Assembly (NCBI GenBank): GCA_030725745.1
Contig: JANRFH010000045.1
Span: 1 to 64,000, forward strand
DNA length: 64,000 nucleotides
Source of the DNA: Akkermansiaceae bacterium
GTDB lineage: Bacteria; Verrucomicrobiota; Verrucomicrobiia; Verrucomicrobiales; Akkermansiaceae
Reading direction: 5' to 3'
The notes beneath the pieces were generated by a model. The model was not told where the DNA came from. It ran no database searches and was given only the letters and a program-made list of their open reading frames with translations. The first letter of the stretch is position 1. Each line of letters starts with the position of its first letter. This document shows, in pieces, positions 299 to 50,951 of this stretch. The translations under genes were made by a program, and so were the position numbers.

Positions 299-362
299 TG
301 AAATCAAGCAGGTCGAGGTGTTTTGAACCATAGTGCGGGGGTGTCGTCAAGAATGGCGTGTC

Positions 363-845
363 CTATTTTTGCTTCGGCTCGAAAGGGTTGCCGCGAAGAT
401 AGCGCTTCACGGTGAAGTTTTCATGGCCTTCGAGCTCTTCGGCTCTAGAGAAATCGATCTCAAAAGGGGCGAGGTAGGTGTCGCCGTCGTAGGAGTGGTG
501 GACGTGGCTGACGAGCCATTCATTGATGAGCGGAGAGAGGGCTGTGTAAATTTCTGCACCGCCGATAATGAAGATCTGGCCTTCCATTTCGGCAATGGCC
601 TCTGGACTGTGGATGACCTCGACGCCTTCGTGCGACCATGATTTGTCGCGGGTGAGGACGATGTTTTTTCGATTCGGCAGGGGTCTGCCGATGGATTCGA
701 AGGTTTTGCGCCCCATGAGGATGGGGTGGCCTGTGGTGGTTCTTTTGAAAAACGCGAGGTCTTCGGGCAGGTGCCATGGGAGTTTTCCGTCGCGTCCGAT
801 GACGCGGTTCGGATCCATGGCGACGATGGCGGTGAGGTGGGGCAT
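363..845 (-). CDS. folA: dihydrofolate reductase
   Basis: The product reduces dihydrofolate to tetrahydrofolate with NADPH, regenerating the folate oxidised by thymidylate synthase. The 160-residue protein has the usual FolA length and starts MPHLTAIVAM. Visible motifs are the Met20-loop region with P23-W24 and the acidic active-site residue D29 (equivalent to E. coli D27), the GRKTFESIG segment near 46-53 and the NADPH-binding IIGGAEIY near 93-100. The ATG at 845 is chosen because the upstream extension of the frame overlaps thyA and has no FolA similarity. It is the last gene of a hisK-like/thyA/folA operon, only 5 nt after the thyA stop. Confidence 0.96.
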   Translation of the reverse strand: MPHLTAIVAMDPNRVIGRDGKLPWHLPEDLAFFKRTTTGHPILMGRKTFESIGRPLPNRKNIVLTRDKSWSHEGVEVIHSPEAIAEMEGQIFIIGGAEIYTALSPLINEWLVSHVHHSYDGDTYLAPFEIDFSRAEELEGHENFTVKRYLRGNPFEPKQK

Positions 846-850
846 ATTTT

Positions 851-1663
851 TTAAACGGCGATGGGTGCTTTGATCGTCGGGTGGGGATCGTAGTTTTCCA
901 GGGAAATATCCTCGAAGGTGAAGGCGTCGATGGCTTTCACCTCGGGATTGATGCGGATGGTGGGTAGCGGGCGGTGCTCGCGGGTGAGCTGGAGGCGCGC
1001 TTGGTCGAGGTGGTTGCTGTAGAGGTGAAGATCTCCGAAGGTGTGGACGAAATCCCGCACTTCGTAGTCGCAGATCTGGGCGACGAGGTGGGTGAGGAGG
1101 GCGTAGGAGGCGATGTTGAAAGGCACGCCGAGAAAAAGGTCTGCGCTGCGTTGGTAGAGCTGGCAGGAGAGGCCGGGTTTGCCGTCGCCGATGGGCTCGT
1201 GGACGTAGAATTGGAAGAGCAGGTGGCAGGGAGGGAGTGCCATGTCCGGCACGTCGCCGACGTTCCATGCAGAGACGATGTGACGGCGTGAGTGAGGGTT
1301 GTTTTTCAGGCTATCGATGAGCTGTGAGACTTGGTCGATGACTTTGCCGTCCTTCGTTTCCCATGCACGCCACTGCTTTCCGTAAACGGGGCCGAGGTTG
1401 CCTTCATCGTCCGCCCACTCGTCCCAGATGGTGACTTTGTTTTCCTTGAGGTAGGCGATGTTTGTCTCGCCTTTGAGAAACCATAACAGCTCGTGGATGA
1501 TGGAGCGGAGGTGGAGCTTTTTCGTGGTAACGCAGGGAAATCCCTCGCGCAGATCGTAGCGAGCTTGCCTACCGAAGACCGAGAGCGTGCCGGTGCCGGT
1601 GCGGTCGCCACGCTCCTCGCCGTTTTCGAGGACGTCGGTGAGGAGGTCGTGGTAGGCTTTCAT
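851..1663 (-). CDS. thyA: thymidylate synthase
   Basis: Converts dUMP to dTMP using methylene-tetrahydrofolate as both carbon donor and reductant. The 270-residue length is typical of ThyA. The nucleophile C146 sits in [13 protein letters not shown], the phosphate-binding arginines are in NPHSRRHIV (R126, R127), and the N-terminal GDRTGTGT loop and the [10 protein letters not shown] segment are intact. The C-terminus ends in the expected A-P-I-A-V. It is followed closely by folA, a common functional coupling because ThyA produces dihydrofolate. A heptamer repeat (1669-1696) separates it from the upstream gene. Confidence 0.98.
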
Positions 1664-1668
1664 AGGGG

Positions 1669-1696
1669 AAACTTTAAATTTTAAACTTTAAACCTC
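1669..1696. repeat. 7-mer repeat array (AAACTTT type)
   Basis: Four consecutive 7-mers in exact register: AAACTTT, AAATTTT, AAACTTT, AAACCTC. The array fills the gap between thyA and the PHP phosphatase and overlaps that gene's stop codon (1695-1697). It is single, without an inverted partner, unlike the arrays in the ATP synthase operon. Confidence 0.7.
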
Positions 1697-2492
1697 AAGG
1701 AAGAGGTTCGGCGGTGCGCTTTCTTTTGTTGAAGAGCTGGGTTTCTTGGTAGCCGGCGGCTTTGGCGATGGCGTGGGCTTTGGTGAAATCTCGGGCGACT
1801 TCGTTTGGGGCGTGGGCGTCTGAGGAAATGACAAGGCCGATGCCTGCGGAGCGGGCGAGCTCTAGGAAACGCGGGGCGGGGTAGGCTTCGGCACAGGGCT
1901 TGTGGAGGCCGGCGGTGTTGATCTCGATGACGGAGCCGTTAGCGGCGATGGCCTCTATGGCTGGCTCGTAGAAGCGGTCGAGATCGCCTTTCGGTGCGTA
2001 GGAGAATTTTTTCACCAGGTCTGGGTGGGCTAGGATGTCGAAGAGGCCGCTCTCGGCCATCTGCGCGTAGGTTTTCCAATATTCCGTCCACACGGCATCG
2101 ACATCGGTTTCAGCCCATTTTCCGAGCCACTTCGGGTTATCGAAATCCCAGCCGCCGAGGTAATGCACGGAGCCGATGAGGTAGTCCCAGTCGTATTGTA
2201 CGGCGAGTTCGGCGATGAAATCTCCGCAGCCCGGCAGCCAATCGCACTCCATGCCTGCGCGGATCTCGAGACGGCCAGCGGCGGCGGTTTTTGCACGTTC
2301 TATCCAATCGAAATACTCGGGAAGCTCGCTCCAAGACATGCGCCAGTCATCAAAAGGCTCTGGACGGCACGGCGCGTGATCCGAAATGCCGTATTCCGTG
2401 AGGCCAGCGGCGACGGCGGCCTCCACGTATTCCTCCGGCTCGCCTGTGGCGTGGCGGCAGAGGGGGGTGTGGGTGTGGTAATCGGCTGGCAT
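1695..2492 (-). CDS. PHP-family histidinol-phosphatase-like
   Basis: Predicted to hydrolyse histidinol phosphate to histidinol (step 8 of histidine synthesis) or a similar phosphate ester, in the cytoplasm with several metal ions. From the chosen start the protein is 265 residues. It opens with the PHP signature DYHTHT, followed by SDHA, GMECDW, GSVHY, LAHPDL and SSDAHAPNE, which supply the metal-binding His/Asp/Glu ligands of HisK/HisJ-type phosphatases. The ATG at 2492 is preferred over a TTG at 2531, because PHP proteins begin at the DYHTHT strand and a GGAG lies just upstream. It heads a minus-strand run with thyA and folA. Other his genes are absent here, so the substrate is inferred from the family. 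Confidence 0.85.
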   Translation of the reverse strand: MPADYHTHTPLCRHATGEPEEYVEAAVAAGLTEYGISDHAPCRPEPFDDWRMSWSELPEYFDWIERAKTAAAGRLEIRAGMECDWLPGCGDFIAELAVQYDWDYLIGSVHYLGGWDFDNPKWLGKWAETDVDAVWTEYWKTYAQMAESGLFDILAHPDLVKKFSYAPKGDLDRFYEPAIEAIAANGSVIEINTAGLHKPCAEAYPAPRFLELARSAGIGLVISSDAHAPNEVARDFTKAHAIAKAAGYQETQLFNKRKRTAEPLP

Positions 2493-2551
2493 TGGCTCCG
2501 GTAGTTTTAGGCTGCTTGAAAGATTCCGCAAGCATCCTCACGTTTTCAATT

Positions 2552-3448
2552 ATGCTCAAAACCCTAGCCGTCTCGTCGTTCATTCTCCTTCAACTGCTGC
2601 ATGCGGAGGAAATTTCCCCCATTCTCACCCTCCCTGAAATGCAGGAGCCGAAGCTTGGGGTGGACTCCATGGAAAAGGGCGATGTTGCCAAGGGCACGCT
2701 TTCCGAATTCGTTTTCGAGGACTCAAAAGTCTTCCCAGGGACGAAACGGACGATCCACCTCTACCTGCCAGCAAATCACGATCCCGAGAAGGAAACCGCT
2801 ATCATGGTTTTTCAGGATGGGCGTGTGTTTGTGAAAGCAGACGGTCCGTTCCGCATCCCCACGGTGTTTGATAACCTCATCGCCGCCGGTGACATGCCTC
2901 CGGTAATCGGGATCTTCATCGATCCGGGTCAGTTCACCGATGCCGAACGGCAGAAGGCGTCGAACAAAGGAAAAGGTAACCGCAGCTTCGAATACGACAC
3001 ACTTTCTGCCGACTACGCGACATTCCTGATCGATGAAATCCTACCGCTAGTGGCAAAGGATCACAAGCTGACCACGGATCCGGAAATGCGGGCGATATGC
3101 GGTATCAGCTCGGGCGGGATCTGTGCATGGACGGTGGCGTGGGAGAGGCCGGACATGTTCAGGAAGGTCGTTTCCGGGATCGGCTCGTTCACGAACATCC
3201 GGGGCGGCGACGCCTACCCTGGCATGATTCGTAAAACCGAAAACAAGCCGATCCGGGGCTTTTTCCAAGAGGGAATCAACGATCTCGACAACGAACATGG
3301 CAACTGGCCTCTGGGCAATATGTCCATGCAGGCCGCGCTGAAATACAAAGGCTACGACCACAAGTTTGTATGGGGCACCGGAGCACACAGCGGGCAGCAC
3401 CTTGGCGCGATTTTTCCCGATGCGATGCGGTGGCTGTGGCGGGATTGA
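2552..3448 (+). CDS. secreted esterase of the enterochelin-esterase/esterase D family
   Basis: The 298-residue protein begins with a short hydrophobic signal peptide (about residues 1-18, ending LLHAE) and is expected in the periplasm. It has an alpha/beta-hydrolase core of the putative-esterase (PF00756) type. Features are a strand with YLPANHDP, the FQDG segment, the nucleophile elbow GISSGG with Ser186, and a C-terminal GTGAHSGQH that can supply the catalytic His. The ATG at 2552 is chosen because it starts the signal peptide; an upstream TTG would add a non-signal extension. It diverges from the PHP phosphatase. The natural ester substrate cannot be read from the sequence. Confidence 0.82.
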   Translation: MLKTLAVSSFILLQLLHAEEISPILTLPEMQEPKLGVDSMEKGDVAKGTLSEFVFEDSKVFPGTKRTIHLYLPANHDPEKETAIMVFQDGRVFVKADGPFRIPTVFDNLIAAGDMPPVIGIFIDPGQFTDAERQKASNKGKGNRSFEYDTLSADYATFLIDEILPLVAKDHKLTTDPEMRAICGISSGGICAWTVAWERPDMFRKVVSGIGSFTNIRGGDAYPGMIRKTENKPIRGFFQEGINDLDNEHGNWPLGNMSMQAALKYKGYDHKFVWGTGAHSGQHLGAIFPDAMRWLWRD

Positions 3449-3521
3449 ACCCCATGAGCTGACTTCCGCCCTTTACTTCCGGCGCTCGTTCGGCCTCCTT
3501 TGGGCGACAGCGAAACGCGCC

Positions 3522-5201
3522 ATGAATCCGAATTCCCTCACGAAATACCGCCCTTTTCCGGCGACTCCCCTGCCCGACCGCACATGGCCGGACAAGGAGA
3601 TCACCCACGCCCCTATCTGGTGCTCGGTGGATCTACGTGATGGAAACCAGGCACTGCCACAGCCCATGTCGATCGAGGAGAAGCTGGAATTCTTCGATCT
3701 CCTCGTGCGCATCGGTTTCAAGGAAATCGAGATTGGTTTCCCCTCCGCTGCGGATACGGAATTCAATTTCTGCCGCCGCCTGATCGAGGAAAACCGCATC
3801 CCGGAGGACGTCACGATTCAGATCCTGGTGCAGACACGCGAGCAGCTCATCCGACGCAGCTTCGAGGCCATCGCTGGGGCGAAGCGTGCCATCGTGCACA
3901 TCTACAACTCCACCTCGCCGCTGCAGCGTCGGGTGACCTTCGGTGATGCCACTCGCGAGTCGATTAAGCAGATCGCCGTGGACGGTGCGAAGCTGGTGAA
4001 AGAACTGGTGCCGAGCATTCCTACTACGGAAGTCGTACTTCAGTATTCTCCCGAGTCCTTTTCCGATACCGAGCTGGATTACTCGCTGGAGGTCTGCAAC
4101 GCCGTGATCGGCGTCTGGGAGCCTACGCCCGGGAGGAAAATGATCATCAACCTACCGGACACCGTCCAGTGGGCGACTCCGAATGTGCACGCAGACATGA
4201 TCGAATGGATGAGCCGGAAACTTGATCGCCGGGATTCTGTGATCGTCTCCCTGCACACACACAACGACCGCGGCACCGGCGTCGCAGCCACCGAGCTCGG
4301 CCTTATGGCGGGCGCGGATCGTGTGGAAGGCACCCTTTTCGGAAACGGCGAACGCACGGGAAATCTCGATATCGTCACCGTCGCGCTGAACATGAACAGC
4401 CACGGCATTGCCACCGGGCTGGATTTTTCCGACCTCACCGACATCCGCCTGAAGTATGAAAAATTCACACGCCTCGCCGTTCCTGAGCGTCAGCCCTACG
4501 GCGGCGAGCTGGTGTTTACGGCGTTTTCCGGCTCGCACCAAGATGCGATCAAGAAAGGCCTCGACCGCCGCGCGAAGGAAACGGAAGCCGATCCCGGCAT
4601 TGGCTGGGGCGTGCCGTATCTGACCATTGATCCGCAGGATATCGGCCGCTCCTACGAGGCAATCATCCGCATCAATTCCCAATCAGGTAAAGGTGGCGTC
4701 GCCTACGTGCTGGATCGCGAGCATGGCTTTGATCTGCCGAAATCGATGCATCCCATCGTAGGGAAATATATTTATGATCTTGCGGATCAACAGGGTCGCG
4801 AACTCACACCAGATGAAATTCGCGATGCGTTTTTCGAGCATTTCGTTAACGTTCCCGAGCCGCTTGGAGTGGTGGAGTATGAGCTGGTGCACAAGGCCGG
4901 CGGCGGTCAGGTGCACTGCAAGGCGGTGGTTTCCATCGAGGGGCATCTGCACCAGATCGAGGGTGACGGGAACGGCCCGATCAATTCCTTCGTGCACGCG
5001 TTGGAGACTGTGGGAATGAAGGATTTCAAGCTCACCGACTACCGCTCTCATGCGGTGCAGGGCGGCTCAGATGCGAGCGCAGCGGCCTACGTGCAGCTGC
5101 AGCACGAAGATGGCCGCTTGGTCTGGGGCACGGGCGTGGATTCCTCCATTGAAATGGCGGGCCTCAAGGCGCTCGTGACCGCGTGGAATTTGATGCGGTG
5201 A
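3522..5201 (+). CDS. leuA: 2-isopropylmalate synthase
   Basis: Condenses acetyl-CoA with 2-ketoisovalerate, the first committed step of leucine synthesis. At 559 residues it has the length of the LeuA type 2 branch, whose N-terminus typically reads KYRPFP. The catalytic TIM barrel carries DLRDGNQ (37-43) and the metal-binding HTHND near 245. The C-terminal third (about 430-559) is the LeuA dimer/regulatory domain that normally gives leucine feedback inhibition. The ATG at 3522 fits the family N-terminus; the longer frame would run back into the esterase gene. No other leu genes are in the window. Confidence 0.96.
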   Translation: MNPNSLTKYRPFPATPLPDRTWPDKEITHAPIWCSVDLRDGNQALPQPMSIEEKLEFFDLLVRIGFKEIEIGFPSAADTEFNFCRRLIEENRIPEDVTIQILVQTREQLIRRSFEAIAGAKRAIVHIYNSTSPLQRRVTFGDATRESIKQIAVDGAKLVKELVPSIPTTEVVLQYSPESFSDTELDYSLEVCNAVIGVWEPTPGRKMIINLPDTVQWATPNVHADMIEWMSRKLDRRDSVIVSLHTHNDRGTGVAATELGLMAGADRVEGTLFGNGERTGNLDIVTVALNMNSHGIATGLDFSDLTDIRLKYEKFTRLAVPERQPYGGELVFTAFSGSHQDAIKKGLDRRAKETEADPGIGWGVPYLTIDPQDIGRSYEAIIRINSQSGKGGVAYVLDREHGFDLPKSMHPIVGKYIYDLADQQGRELTPDEIRDAFFEHFVNVPEPLGVVEYELVHKAGGGQVHCKAVVSIEGHLHQIEGDGNGPINSFVHALETVGMKDFKLTDYRSHAVQGGSDASAAAYVQLQHEDGRLVWGTGVDSSIEMAGLKALVTAWNLMR

Positions 5202-46887: not shown

Positions 46888-47031
46888 GGCGGGCGCGGAC
46901 GCTAGCAACCGCTTTCCCCGGGGTCAACCCCGTGGGAGGGGGTGAAATCAGTGTTGTCTGAGGCTGTTGGAGTGCCTAGGATTGTCGAAGTCGGATTTCA
47001 AAAAACCGATTCCACCCTCACCACCGATCTC

Positions 47032-47862
47032 ATGGGAATTTTCAGCAAACCACTCCTCAGAAGCAACCAGCAGAAACGCGACGACATGCCGGAAGGCTTG
47101 TGGTCGAAATGTCCGGAGTGCGGCGCGATGATCCACACCCTGGAGCTTAAACAGAATCACCAGGTCTGTCCGCCCTGCGGCCACCACTTCCTGCTGGATT
47201 CCCTCGATAGGGTGAGCCTCATCGCCGATCCCGGCACCTTCGAGGAAACGGAAGCCGGGCTTTTTTCCGCCAACCCGCTCTCCTTCAACGGTTACGAAGA
47301 CAAGATCGACGGCCTGCGCAAGCGCACCGGTATGAATGACGCAGCGATCACTGGTCGGCTCGTAATCCACGGGAAGCCAGCGATGATCGCGGTGATGGAT
47401 TTCAAGTTTTTCGCGGGCTCCATGGGCTCGGTGGTGGGTGAAAAGCTCACCCGCGCGATCGAGACAGCCATCGCGGAGAAGCGTGGCGTGATCATCGTTT
47501 CTGCCTCCTCCGGCGCGCGTATGCAGGAGGGAATGCTCTCGCTCATGCAAATGGCGAAAACCTGTGGGGCGCTGGCGCGTCTCGGCGAGGCGAAACTGCC
47601 TTACATTTCAGTTTTAACCCACCCGACAACGGGCGGCGTCACTGCCTCTTTTGCAACCATCGGCGACATCAACCTCGCCGAGCCGAAGTGCATGATCGGT
47701 TTTGCTGGCCCACGCGTTGTGAAGGAAACAACTCACCAGAACCTCCCTCCCGGCTTCCAAACGGCGGAGTTCATGCTCGAGCACGGCTTGATTGATGCAA
47801 TCGTCCCAAGGCACCAGATGCGGGATAGGCTCGGAAAGCTGCTGAACTTCATGATGAAGTGA
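47032..47862 (+). CDS. accD: acetyl-CoA carboxylase carboxyltransferase subunit beta
   Basis: Makes malonyl-CoA together with AccA in fatty acid synthesis. The 276-residue protein has an N-terminal zinc ribbon with C27, C30, C46 and C49 (CPECG...CPPCG), then the crotonase-like carboxyltransferase fold: GSVVGEKLTRAIETAI, SSGARMQEGMLSLMQMAK, LTHPTTGGVTASFA. The ATG at 47032 gives the usual MGIFSKP start. It diverges from ileS over about 140 bp with no Shine-Dalgarno. Confidence 0.96.
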   Translation: MGIFSKPLLRSNQQKRDDMPEGLWSKCPECGAMIHTLELKQNHQVCPPCGHHFLLDSLDRVSLIADPGTFEETEAGLFSANPLSFNGYEDKIDGLRKRTGMNDAAITGRLVIHGKPAMIAVMDFKFFAGSMGSVVGEKLTRAIETAIAEKRGVIIVSASSGARMQEGMLSLMQMAKTCGALARLGEAKLPYISVLTHPTTGGVTASFATIGDINLAEPKCMIGFAGPRVVKETTHQNLPPGFQTAEFMLEHGLIDAIVPRHQMRDRLGKLLNFMMK

Positions 47863-47868
47863 GGTGAG

Positions 47869-47939
47869 TGGCGGCGGATTGCATCCGCCATGCCGGGCTA
47901 TTATTGAAATTTGGCAGGGCGGATTCAATCCGCCGCCAC
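47869..47939. repeat. paired-arm inverted repeat overlapping the 3' end of the helicase gene
   Basis: The left arm 47869-47896 and right arm 47912-47939 are inverted copies (GTGGCGGCGGATTG.ATCCGCC). The right arm encodes the last residues (VVAAD) and the stop codon of the helicase-nuclease gene. The left arm lies just after the accD stop. Each arm folds on itself (GGCGGAT/ATCCGCC). A further copy is found inside the same gene at 48286-48317. Confidence 0.85.
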
Positions 47940-50900
47940 GACTTCACCGAGTGCCGTGGAAACGAGGATGCAGGAGATTTTCGCATCGGGATGGATGGTT
48001 TCCATGACTTTGCGGTAGGAGTCCATTTGGCCAACGTAGCGTTCGCGGAGGTCGGCTGGGGTTTCGACGCGGTCGGTTTTGAAATCGATAATCTCGACCT
48101 TGGTAGCTTTGCCAGTGGGATCACGATGGATGTGGAGGCGGTCGATGACACCGCTCATCCATTTTCCGTCGAGCACGGCCTCGATGCGTTGCTCGCGGCG
48201 GAGGGTGATGTCGCGACCGCTTTTCGAGAAGAGGGCAGCGACTTCCGGGACGGCGAGGATTTCTGAAATGGTCGTGGCGATGGAGTTGGCAGGGCGGATG
48301 CAATCCGCCGCCACGGGCTCATCGATCCAGCCGATATTTTCAAAAGCGGCATGGACGGCGGTGCCGAATCTGCGGCCACCGCCTGAGTCGATGGCGGCAG
48401 TTGTTGGTTTCGCTTTTGTGCCGCTGGGGGTGCTGCGCGGGCGTTTTTGAATGGGTTTACCTAGGGAGCCGGTTGCTTTTTCCACGGGCTTTTCTGGTTT
48501 GCCGACTGAACCCGCCCATGCGGGATCACCGGATTCGAAAAGAGCTTCCTCCCCGGTATCGAGGCCGAGCGAGGCCATGATCCAGTTGGAGAGGCTGGGC
48601 TTGGTGAAATCGTGTTTCTTGGCGGGTGTGTCGAGGAGGAGGTAGAGGCCGCGTTTGGCGCGGGTCATGGCTACGTAGAGCTTGCAGAAGGATTCGTAGA
48701 TCTGGCGGTCGCCCCAGCGTTGCTCTGCCTCGTGCAGCTCGGGGATCATGGCGCGCGCCCATGAGGTCGGGGCGGCGGTGATCCAGCCATCGCCGCTGAG
48801 CGCGTGGAGGTGGGTGAAATCGGGGATTTTCGTGGTTTGGATGTCCGGGAGGATGACGACATCGAATCCGAGGCCTTTGGACTTGTGGATGGTCATCACC
48901 TGCACCGCTGCGACGCCGGGGCTTTGGGAGATCTTCATGCGGCCTATCCAATCCGCCGCCTCGCGTGCTGAGATCGTGCCCTGCGTGTCGAGTTCCGTGA
49001 GTGCGGCAATGAGATCCAAGCTACGGTTTTTCCCGTAGCCAGACCAATCCTCGGTGAGCGGGGAAACGATTTCCGCGAGCATGCCGCCGAAGCCTTTTTC
49101 CGAAACCATGGTTCCCAGCCCCTCCCAAGCCGCCTGCCATGCTGCCCCGAAACGCTCTTCCAGCACCGGTTTCAGCGGCGACATCATGACCGTCTGTTTT
49201 GCGAAATCATCCGCCGGGTTCGCCAACCAGCGCAGGAGCTGCCAGATCATCACGCCTACCGGGTGATCCTTGCCGGGCTCGCGTGCGCCTTCCTCGACGA
49301 CTTGGAAGCCCTCCGCCCGCAGCACGTCCGCCCATTCGGTGACTTGTTTGTTGGTGGAAACGAGCACCCCGCAGGTCAGCGCCTTTTGGCCGATGCCGTT
49401 TTCGTGCAGCAGCTCGACGACACGCTCCGCCTTGTCGTCTTTTTCCAGCACCTCCACGCGGGAATAACCTGCTTTTTCCGGGGCTTTGAGTTTCTCTGCG
49501 GAAACATGATCCTCCCATTGCCACTCCGCCGCCGCTTGTTCTCCGAAAAGGGCGGCCATGGTTTTTAGGTCACCGCAGACACGGTTCACCGCATCGAGCA
49601 CTTGAGGGCAGGAGCGCCATGATTCTGCCATGGTAGCGGTTTCGAGGCCACCACCGTAGTTTTCCATCAGTTCATCGAAGAGGCCGACCTCGCCGCCGCG
49701 CCACGCGTAGATGGCCTGTTTCCGGTCACCTACTACGAATACGGTAGATTCATCGTTGGTCACGCCTTCATCGATGAGGGGGAGGAGGGCATTCCACTCG
49801 TCGCGGCTGGTGTCTTGGAATTCATCGAGCAGCCAGTGGCCGTAGCGTGCATCAAGGCGGAAATCGACGGCCTCGCGGCGGAGGCGGGCGTCCTCGCCCT
49901 GCATCCATGCGCCCATGAGGCGTTTCACATCGTCGAAGCCGAGCCTGCCACGCCCGCGCAACTCAGTATCAACCATGCCATCGTAGGGGGCGATGACTCC
50001 GCGTATGCCGCGTGTGCGGGCGAGGGCTGCGGCCAGTTCGCAGCGTGCGGCTAGCTCGATGAGATCACGCAGGCCTTCTGCCGCTGCGCCTGTGATGGTG
50101 AGAGGTTTGTAGAAAGATACATCGAGCGCGCCGCTGCCCTCGGCGGAGGCCGCCATCACGCTTTTTAGGAGGCTGGAGGCATCTTCCAAGGAGCCGCTGG
50201 CGACGGTGTGTTCCTGCAGTGAGTTCATCATCGCATGGAAAGCCTTTTCCTGGCGCTTATCAGTCTGAGCAACATTCGGCCAATCGCGTTTCACTTGATC
50301 GATGAGACCTGCTTTCTGCTTTTCCCAATCGCCAATATCCACACCCGCAAGCGCCGCCGGGCCCCACTCCACGGCTGTGGGTGAAACATAGCTCCGGTGC
50401 CAGCTATCGATGAACCTGCGTAGATCAGAGAGCACACCGACGCCTTCCTTGCCTGCGGTGGCGCGGCGGAAAACGTTCACGAACTCTTCCTCAGCTGTGG
50501 CGTCAACACCTCGGTCGAGCAGACCTTCCATCAGCCCATCGCGCAGGGTTTCGGCCACTTCGCCCTCCAACAGTTCGAATTTCCCGCCGGTCACCCCAAG
50601 TTCGTATTGAAAGCCCCGGACGATCTTCGCGAAAAAGGCGTCCATCGTCGTGAGCGTCAGCTTCGGCAGGCTTCGAACGGTGTTTTCCAAGATCTCTCCG
50701 AAATCGACATCAGACATCGCGAACTTGACCTGTAACTCGGCAGCTCTTTTCGGATACTCTGCAGCCTCCGCCAGTTTCTCCAAAATGGCATCTGCAAACT
50801 CGCCCGCAGCCTTGCGGGTGAAGGTAAGCGCAACGATTTCCTCATGTTGCACCCCCTTCGCCATGAGCCCGATTACTCGGTCACTCAGGCAGAAAGTCTT

Positions 50901-50951
50901 ACCAGAGCCGGCCGAAGCGAGGACGAGGAGGTTTTTTTGTAAGATGTTCAT
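47925..50951 (-). CDS. UvrD-type helicase with C-terminal nuclease domain (AddA/RecB-like)
   Basis: The 1008-residue protein starts NILQKNLLVLASAGSGKT (Walker A 12-19). It has helicase motifs VALTFTRKAAGEF, LLDEFQDTSRDEW, VVGDRKQAIYAWRGG and MTIHKSKGLGFDVV, and LYVAMTRAKRGLYL. The C-terminus has a PD-(D/E)XK nuclease with FGTAVHAAFE, a conserved VEIIDFKTDR, and YVGQMDSYRKVM. It should unwind and degrade double-strand ends in recombination repair. A partner AddB-like gene is not adjacent. An in-frame palindromic repeat (48286-48317) lies inside the nuclease region, and another forms the stop. Confidence 0.9.
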   Translation of the reverse strand: MNILQKNLLVLASAGSGKTFCLSDRVIGLMAKGVQHEEIVALTFTRKAAGEFADAILEKLAEAAEYPKRAAELQVKFAMSDVDFGEILENTVRSLPKLTLTTMDAFFAKIVRGFQYELGVTGGKFELLEGEVAETLRDGLMEGLLDRGVDATAEEEFVNVFRRATAGKEGVGVLSDLRRFIDSWHRSYVSPTAVEWGPAALAGVDIGDWEKQKAGLIDQVKRDWPNVAQTDKRQEKAFHAMMNSLQEHTVASGSLEDASSLLKSVMAASAEGSGALDVSFYKPLTITGAAAEGLRDLIELAARCELAAALARTRGIRGVIAPYDGMVDTELRGRGRLGFDDVKRLMGAWMQGEDARLRREAVDFRLDARYGHWLLDEFQDTSRDEWNALLPLIDEGVTNDESTVFVVGDRKQAIYAWRGGEVGLFDELMENYGGGLETATMAESWRSCPQVLDAVNRVCGDLKTMAALFGEQAAAEWQWEDHVSAEKLKAPEKAGYSRVEVLEKDDKAERVVELLHENGIGQKALTCGVLVSTNKQVTEWADVLRAEGFQVVEEGAREPGKDHPVGVMIWQLLRWLANPADDFAKQTVMMSPLKPVLEERFGAAWQAAWEGLGTMVSEKGFGGMLAEIVSPLTEDWSGYGKNRSLDLIAALTELDTQGTISAREAADWIGRMKISQSPGVAAVQVMTIHKSKGLGFDVVILPDIQTTKIPDFTHLHALSGDGWITAAPTSWARAMIPELHEAEQRWGDRQIYESFCKLYVAMTRAKRGLYLLLDTPAKKHDFTKPSLSNWIMASLGLDTGEEALFESGDPAWAGSVGKPEKPVEKATGSLGKPIQKRPRSTPSGTKAKPTTAAIDSGGGRRFGTAVHAAFENIGWIDEPVAADCIRPANSIATTISEILAVPEVAALFSKSGRDITLRREQRIEAVLDGKWMSGVIDRLHIHRDPTGKATKVEIIDFKTDRVETPADLRERYVGQMDSYRKVMETIHPDAKISCILVSTALGEVVAAD
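48286..48317. repeat. palindromic repeat unit inside the helicase-nuclease coding sequence
   Basis: This is the same unit as the arms at 47869-47939 (GGCAGGGCGGAT.CAATCCGCC), lying in frame within the gene and encoding P-V-A-A-D-C-I-R-P-A-N on the minus strand. It falls between the conserved GTAVHAAFE of the nuclease domain and the next core segment, so it probably forms a surface loop. Confidence 0.8.

Follow-up and report, generated by a model that had tools for sequence, protein, structure and literature searches.

An AddA/RecB-like helicase gene in the window - the whole 64,000-nt stretch of Akkermansiaceae DNA analysed here - carries a palindromic repeat in frame within its coding sequence. 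We hold it to be very probable that this repeat is an intragenic GTGG-type REP, with a REP-bracketed RAYT that itself lies in frame inside metH as its probable mobiliser. Intragenic REPs as such are already known (PMC3733652); less expected is that the presumed transposase lives unspliced within MetH as a guest domain, and that this lifestyle recurs across several essential enzymes and phyla. The in-frame copy had been recorded in a sequence-only reading of the window and is confirmed by our analysis, while the interpretation then placed on it is partly supported.

The helicase is of the UvrD/RecB type, and its residues 919-986 match PDDEXK_1. NCBIfam models for a RecB-like helicase and for AddA also match the protein, all under their cut-offs, and we therefore name it no further than AddA/RecB-like. 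The residues PVAADCIRPAN (879-889) stand just N-terminal of the PDDEXK_1 match, so their earlier assignment to the nuclease domain holds for the nuclease region at large but not for the match itself. Read on the minus strand, the internal unit is GTGGCGGCGGATTGCATCCGCCCTGCC. The unit at the 3' end of the gene differs from it by a single base (TGC versus TGA), and its GTG GCG GCG GAT TGA provides the last four residues, with the stop codon at 47925-47927 (Table 1). A repeat at 47869-47939 had been described as flanking the gene: an inverted pair does stand at the 3' end, but its minus-strand member overlaps the coding sequence. The pair folds as one long single-stranded DNA hairpin (-32.3 kcal/mol, z -7.4). 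Rfam gave only miRNA-precursor-like matches at this pair, which, being sub-threshold and falling on a long hairpin, we judge to be due to chance; long REP-pair hairpins can mislead RNA searches.

Table 1. Features of the helicase gene, its REP units and its neighbour (positions in the window)
Feature	Position	Strand	Remarks
AddA/RecB-like helicase with PD-(D/E)XK nuclease domain, 1008 aa from ATG	47925..50951	-	REP host
Intragenic REP unit, 27 nt, in helicase gene	48288..48314	-	encodes VAADCIRPA (residues 880-888)
REP unit overlapping helicase gene 3' end	47913..47939	-	supplies VAAD codons and TGA stop
Partner REP unit, inverted orientation, intergenic	47868..47894	+	
Inverted REP pair, BIME/REPIN-like, 72 nt	47868..47939	.	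single long hairpin
Convergent neighbour gene	46942..47862	+	product presumably accD-like

Comparison with related helicases bears on how the unit came to lie where it does. Every one of the 26 same-genus homologues that cover the site has three residues fewer in the linker that follows the W-x-D motif (29 relatives' loci were fetched, three of which do not reach it; identity 48-68%). The peptide VAADCIRPA is absent from all 26, and in none of these repeat-free homologues are the same residues found at this position. The protein is only three residues longer here than its homologues; the REP has therefore replaced about six native codons of this hypervariable linker by nine. The earlier claim that the repeat adds about ten residues does not survive this alignment: no insertion exactly spanning them is seen, and a clean ten-residue insertion is ruled out by the net gain of three against all 26. 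The loop is variable in length in seven further relatives, six of them from the same order but outside the genus. No undisputed pre-insertion site for the helicase copy was found in close relatives, among which the closest helicase is 68% identical, and the listed matches to solved structures reach the helicase part alone, none spanning the REP site.

With up to three mismatches, the REP pattern matches the window at the three tabulated units, against 0.00 matches expected from 100 shuffles, and the intergenic query recovers the in-gene copy at 97% identity over 30 nt (E 1.5e-7). The 27-nt consensus, GTGG CGGCGGATTGCATCCGCC (A/C)(T/A)GCC, forms a stable hairpin and has at the foot of the palindrome the GT(A/G)G tetranucleotide by which REPs are recognised. 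As in other REP families, inverted pairs occur beside single units (47868/47913, and on contigs C47, C52 and C6), and copies are dispersed: with up to two mismatches there are 27 matches in the window's genome (3.42 Mb, 57 contigs), below the more than 100 per genome that are usual according to the part of PMC2817692 considered here. Matches are present in 30 of 41 same-genus genomes; the reversed pattern, searched as a control, has none in these 41. We read 26 of the genome's units individually, together with an incomplete one, C6:42997, which lies at a contig gap; its left flank is a repeat of the one at C6:43152, and it may be an assembly duplicate.

Nine of the 26 units lie inside genes recognised by Pfam: one each in the AddA-like helicase, RecG, an M3 peptidase, Fer4-DmsC and a U32 peptidase, two in PurL, and two in MetH, the last being the brackets of its RAYT. 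Two more are at gene ends (the helicase stop and the C-terminus of an amine oxidase), and the other 15 are intergenic, stand in frames in which no gene is recognised or, as the perhaps untranslated C47 pair does, lie at the 5' end of a frame resembling ribonucleotide reductase. In all seven single internal copies of this genome the coding strand carries the GTGG foot, and five are read in frame 1. The common unit, read directly, is open in all six frames and is for this reason a tolerable insert. A weaker unit with three mismatches and a perfect stem (G000:C49:48662, plus strand) is oriented antisense within purL; the gene's second REP copy is 75 nt away. A survey of 20 stretches with 36 units in G015, too small to yield a rule on strand or frame, found four C-terminal in-frame cases, all in frame 1, two units positioned at frame-1 GTG starts of long ORFs, and two antisense units in candidate ORFs, the remaining units lying outside ORFs of at least 200 aa.

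RecG (12 relatives) and PurL (11 relatives) repeat the helicase picture of linker replacement, in that their REP peptides occupy hypervariable linkers whose overall length is hardly altered. At the RecG site most relatives are without a REP-like peptide. The first PurL linker holds VAADFIRHA in the window's genome, VAADSIRHA in G015 and VAADSIRQA in G026, and REPs of other types elsewhere (VGAIFGRP in G004 and G008, VAAITGRR in G001 and G013); the PurL REPs of G004, G008 and G001 are confirmed at the DNA level by their coordinates. PurL of the relative G008 (L280, G008:C11:20800-26200; frame 357-4838, minus strand) contains a different, non-RAYT in-frame insert of about 220 residues that by eye resembles a polyvalent/kinase-like phage protein domain.

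What could have moved these units? The window's genome has ten Y1_Tnp matches. One (C12:64147-64320) lies within a 1137-aa metH frame and is bracketed by REPs; the other nine are more than 10 kb from, or on a different contig than, every unit read. The RAYT nested in metH is the probable source or mobiliser of the window's REPs, and the 27 genome matches together with this REP-bracketed RAYT support the earlier suggestion that the family in all likelihood is, or was, mobile. A RAYT is usually a stand-alone gene, a state from which this one departs by lying in frame inside MetH. Across 16 RAYT sequences the HUH histidines are invariant and Y156 nearly so, the hallmarks of a Y1_Tnp transposase. 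In four RAYTs nested in IspG, CarB or LeuRS (L155, L156, L160 and L163) the Tyr of the ESYDH motif is replaced by F or H, L155 and L156 having a Tyr one place earlier than the motif position; some nested RAYTs may be catalytically dead.

A full-length, stop-free MetH-RAYT frame is present in 10 of the 39 genomes searched, the window's own included (G000, G001, G004, G006, G008, G011, G013, G015, G017 and G044). Partial forms are found in G002, G010 and G048, and many of the remaining genomes have a contiguous, empty metH site. At all 13 loci measured, the length of the insert is divisible by three. From the MetH site up to the conserved LPHW start, two of these (L123 and L175) have no in-frame ATG, GTG or TTG; the other 11 have one to three such codons, so a separate RAYT start may exist there. 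In the window's genome the metH stop is followed directly by a third REP (L077 3475-3501).

Head-out REPs bracket the RAYT in all 14 loci read by eye. In G000, G015, G017 (by peptide), G004, G011 and G013 the brackets belong to whichever of the two counted REP types is more numerous, the search for one pattern having been stricter than for the other; G008 has both types in similar numbers, and G006 and G002 were left unscored. G001 has TTTCCAA-type brackets, yet 35 GATC-type copies versus 7 matches of the other pattern: the bracket type is not always the genome's commonest, and this counts against the RAYT as mobiliser. The RAYT of the G001 MetH fusion (L120) seems by eye to be chimeric, its N-terminal half resembling the type of the window's genome and its C-terminal half that of G011. 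An IStron reading of the metH insert was rejected, since no group I intron was found in it, the one match being sub-threshold and unrelated; likewise, none of the Pfam matches listed for the scanned nested proteins is to an intein family. Scar-like sequences at empty metH sites (TGTAGC in G007, GTGGCGGCGGA in G005) are suggestive of loss by deletion; they were not taken as evidence, as host codons there can look alike.

The MetH-nested RAYT is under purifying selection. Eight pairs were compared, of which L121/L122 repeats L177/L180, giving seven distinct pairs, three with saturated RAYT dS; the four usable distinct pairs have RAYT-core dN/dS values of 0.04, 0.08, 0.13 and 0.15, and MetH, where usable, has 0.02-0.06. 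For L118/L119 the RAYT dS is 0.30 and that of MetH 0.96-0.99, which would fit a RAYT that moved or underwent conversion later than the split between its hosts. The AlphaFold2 model made for one named fusion (20 sequences) is modest overall (mean pLDDT 69.7, pTM 0.53), with the RAYT core nearly all at 64-92 in ten-residue blocks and the REP-encoded linkers below 50, as are several stretches of MetH. The model matches structures of MetH activation domains (6bdy, 1msk) and of TnpA-REP (4er8, E 3.5e-7); at the sequence level, 4er8 is also matched by the RAYT alone (E 4.5e-4).

A tree of MetH without its insert retained 43 rows (30 filled, 13 empty), nine of 52 loci having been dropped for want of two readable flanks. 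It implies 10 changes between filled and empty, at least nine of them forced by starred branches, versus a mean of 11.4 when states are shuffled (96 of 500 shuffles are as low). The metH site has been filled or emptied often, in a tree that cannot tell gain from loss. The RAYT tree (103 rows) sorts by host, with 21 changes versus a shuffled mean of 65.7, and because of this sorting we take entry into each host to be rare, followed by inheritance or re-exchange at the site.

Nesting extends beyond MetH. Twenty further RAYT loci, chosen for long open frames and so not a measure of frequency, are all joined in frame to a host gene (14 by Pfam, six by resemblance judged by eye): IspG in 11, LeuRS and CarB in three each, a DUF5107-TPR protein in two and an adenosine-deaminase-like protein in one. 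In L147 and L163 the upstream host half alone is visible, the frame leaving the fetched stretch. The IspG site is empty in five of seven genomes (G000, G004, G022, G033 and G009) and filled in the other two, and LeuRS is RAYT-free in all seven genomes searched and contiguous in six. At the place in LeuRS where relatives carry a RAYT, G015 (L312) has an unrelated, non-RAYT insert of about 40-48 residues.

Named genomes were scanned with a RAYT alignment (A1) made of nested RAYTs only, a query biased towards nested forms; at least 585 loci came up, of which the best 80 were kept. Host sequence stands on both sides in one frame in 49 of these best 80 (MetH 22, ValRS 8, IspG 7, DUF5107 5, LeuRS 3, Type ISP 2, Eco57I-type 1, Sua5 1); ten have a host on one side only, two are C-terminal fusions, and 19 are stand-alone or without a visible host. 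Genomes of the G-numbered set seem to recur in nine of the 80 (identical rows), and the cultured species Roseibacillus persicicus (KCTC 12988) and Rubritalea profundi (SAORIC-165), each having a MetH-RAYT frame, are included. In an even sample of the phylum, 15 of 79 genomes match at E <= 1e-20, and none of the nine from another genus of the same family does so at this threshold; the element is therefore patchy. Eleven of the 43 matches in this sample lie in open frames of at least 600 aa, the window genome's own metH being the sole identified host, and an open frame alone proves nothing. Nested RAYTs from Planctomycetota and others (L189-L244, e.g. L205, L206 and L211) are flanked by GTGFQPV...HGQDAHAT-like peptides that resemble the translation of a different type of REP.

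Given the copies, their frame, the replacement, the bracketing and the purifying selection on the RAYT, all of them observed directly, the best reading is that RAYT-mobilised REPs are tolerated as linkers and that the RAYT is an unspliced guest domain. It would be translated as part of MetH, recognise REP hairpins in single-stranded DNA, cut at their GT(G/A)G foot and help to copy REPs to new places. Most copies arriving in coding DNA would be purged, and the survivors would be those that keep the frame and sit in flexible linkers, often substituting for native linker codons. More broadly, we lean towards regarding the RAYT-REPs of Verrucomicrobiota, Planctomycetota and neighbouring phyla as a class of intein-like but unspliced guests in loops of essential enzymes (MetH, IspG, LeuRS, ValRS, CarB and others), expressed by the host, protected because imprecise deletion would kill the host gene, repeatedly lost and regained at one site, and seeding REP peptides into further housekeeping linkers. 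It has long been unclear how REPs and their single-copy transposases persist; a RAYT in the frame of an essential enzyme provides a testable answer: its imprecise removal would not be possible, and expression of the host gene would bring its own expression with it. The case also shows hairpin DNA remodelling proteins at their linkers.

Intragenic REPs could instead have spread by REP-REP recombination, and the nested RAYTs without the near-invariant Tyr, the lack of an undisputed pre-insertion site for the helicase copy and the patchy occurrence of the element also weigh against the main reading. Local copying without any transposase, with the 3' unit of the helicase gene carried 375 bp upstream by gene conversion or template switching, is unlikely. 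The two helicase units do share strand and frame, lie 375 nt apart and are 88% alike over 40 nt, and conversion would leave a replacement, not an addition. However, the internal copy and the 3' copy have no identical stretch longer than 15 nt, compared with 32 nt for C3:114834 and 34 nt for the left bracket of the MetH RAYT, where identity covers AGCCC, the unit and AA, i.e. seven bases beyond the 27-nt unit. Moreover, a nearby donor is unneeded elsewhere, since the 7-kb stretches around the RecG and Fer4-DmsC copies contain no second unit. A process of concerted evolution, in which linkers were invaded in an ancestor, REP types were later overwritten by conversion and REP-free linkers are decayed REPs, is conceivable but doubtful: it would fit the differing REP types found at one PurL linker across species at nearly constant linker length, but fits less well with the lack of any recognisable REP peptide in the 26 same-genus helicase homologues or with the variable length of the helicase loop in order-level relatives.

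That the inserted peptide or hairpin has been selected for a host function of its own (regulation, mRNA structure or a protein contact) strikes us as very unlikely. The PurL and RecG linkers are occupied recurrently and the unit folds stably, but the sequence at the same site varies between species, the hosts are unrelated, and the peptide is missing from all 26 helicase relatives. Chance resemblance, with no match expected in shuffled sequence, or an assembly artefact can be set aside almost entirely: nothing about the helicase copy suggests the latter, the duplicate-like C6:42997 being a different unit, and in-frame inserts of the same classes turn up again in genomes that were assembled separately and in cultured isolates such as the two named above.

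Several known systems share some of these features. The part of PMC3733652 considered here (Di Nocera, De Gregorio, Rocco 2013) describes GTAG/CGTC REPs that keep the frame within coding sequences, frequently those for DNA repair, recBCD and UvrD-type helicases among them, with the stop codon often supplied by the REP; O. terrae (Verrucomicrobium) is given as the richest case for GTAG repeats, and two Xanthomonas recB genes carry different REPs at about the same site. Our in-frame unit in a repair helicase and the REP-derived stop codon are of this kind, whereas RAYTs in housekeeping frames, linker replacement at near-constant length and the turnover, from species to species, of REP types at one site go beyond that portion of the paper. 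REP-associated tyrosine transposases (REPtrons), on the sections of PMC6006769 and PMC2817692 (Nunvar 2010) used here, share the REP-bracketed transposase with HUH motif and Tyr, in keeping with the 4ER8 match, but the RAYT frame here is continuous with the host enzyme on both sides. IStrons, to judge from the portion of PMC4227781 drawn upon, likewise place an IS200/IS605-related transposase harmlessly in genes, but escape by RNA splicing, for which the metH insert showed no group I intron.

The sequence-only reading had likened the helicase repeat to the tolerated peptide loops of Rickettsia palindromic elements. The likeness extends, in the partial accounts at hand, to palindromic repeats in frame in unrelated protein genes, and the copies in hypervariable housekeeping linkers agree with a tolerated loop. 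The class itself does not fit: our unit is a REP, an unrelated 27-nt GTGG palindrome whose relatives are Verrucomicrobiota, a distinction drawn from unit and phylum, and its probable mobiliser is identifiable. Rickettsia palindromic elements are mostly longer units. Inteins with homing endonucleases are in-frame guests in conserved enzymes and recur at the same site, and by analogy the nested RAYT may be viewed as such a guest; unlike inteins, its linkers are REP-encoded and nothing points to protein splicing.

Searches of the openly accessible literature yielded no report of a RAYT inside MetH, IspG, LeuRS or ValRS frames, and the parts of PMC2817692, PMC3116915 and PMC8266576 considered contain no description of RAYTs in housekeeping frames. 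According to the corresponding part of PMC6006769 (Quentin 2018), some tnpA-REP genes contain REPs in frame, and a few proteins that were longer than expected, being gene fusions or annotation errors, were discarded from that study. Our results suggest that the odd 'transposase' domains in synthetase and MetH records are real and not annotation errors.
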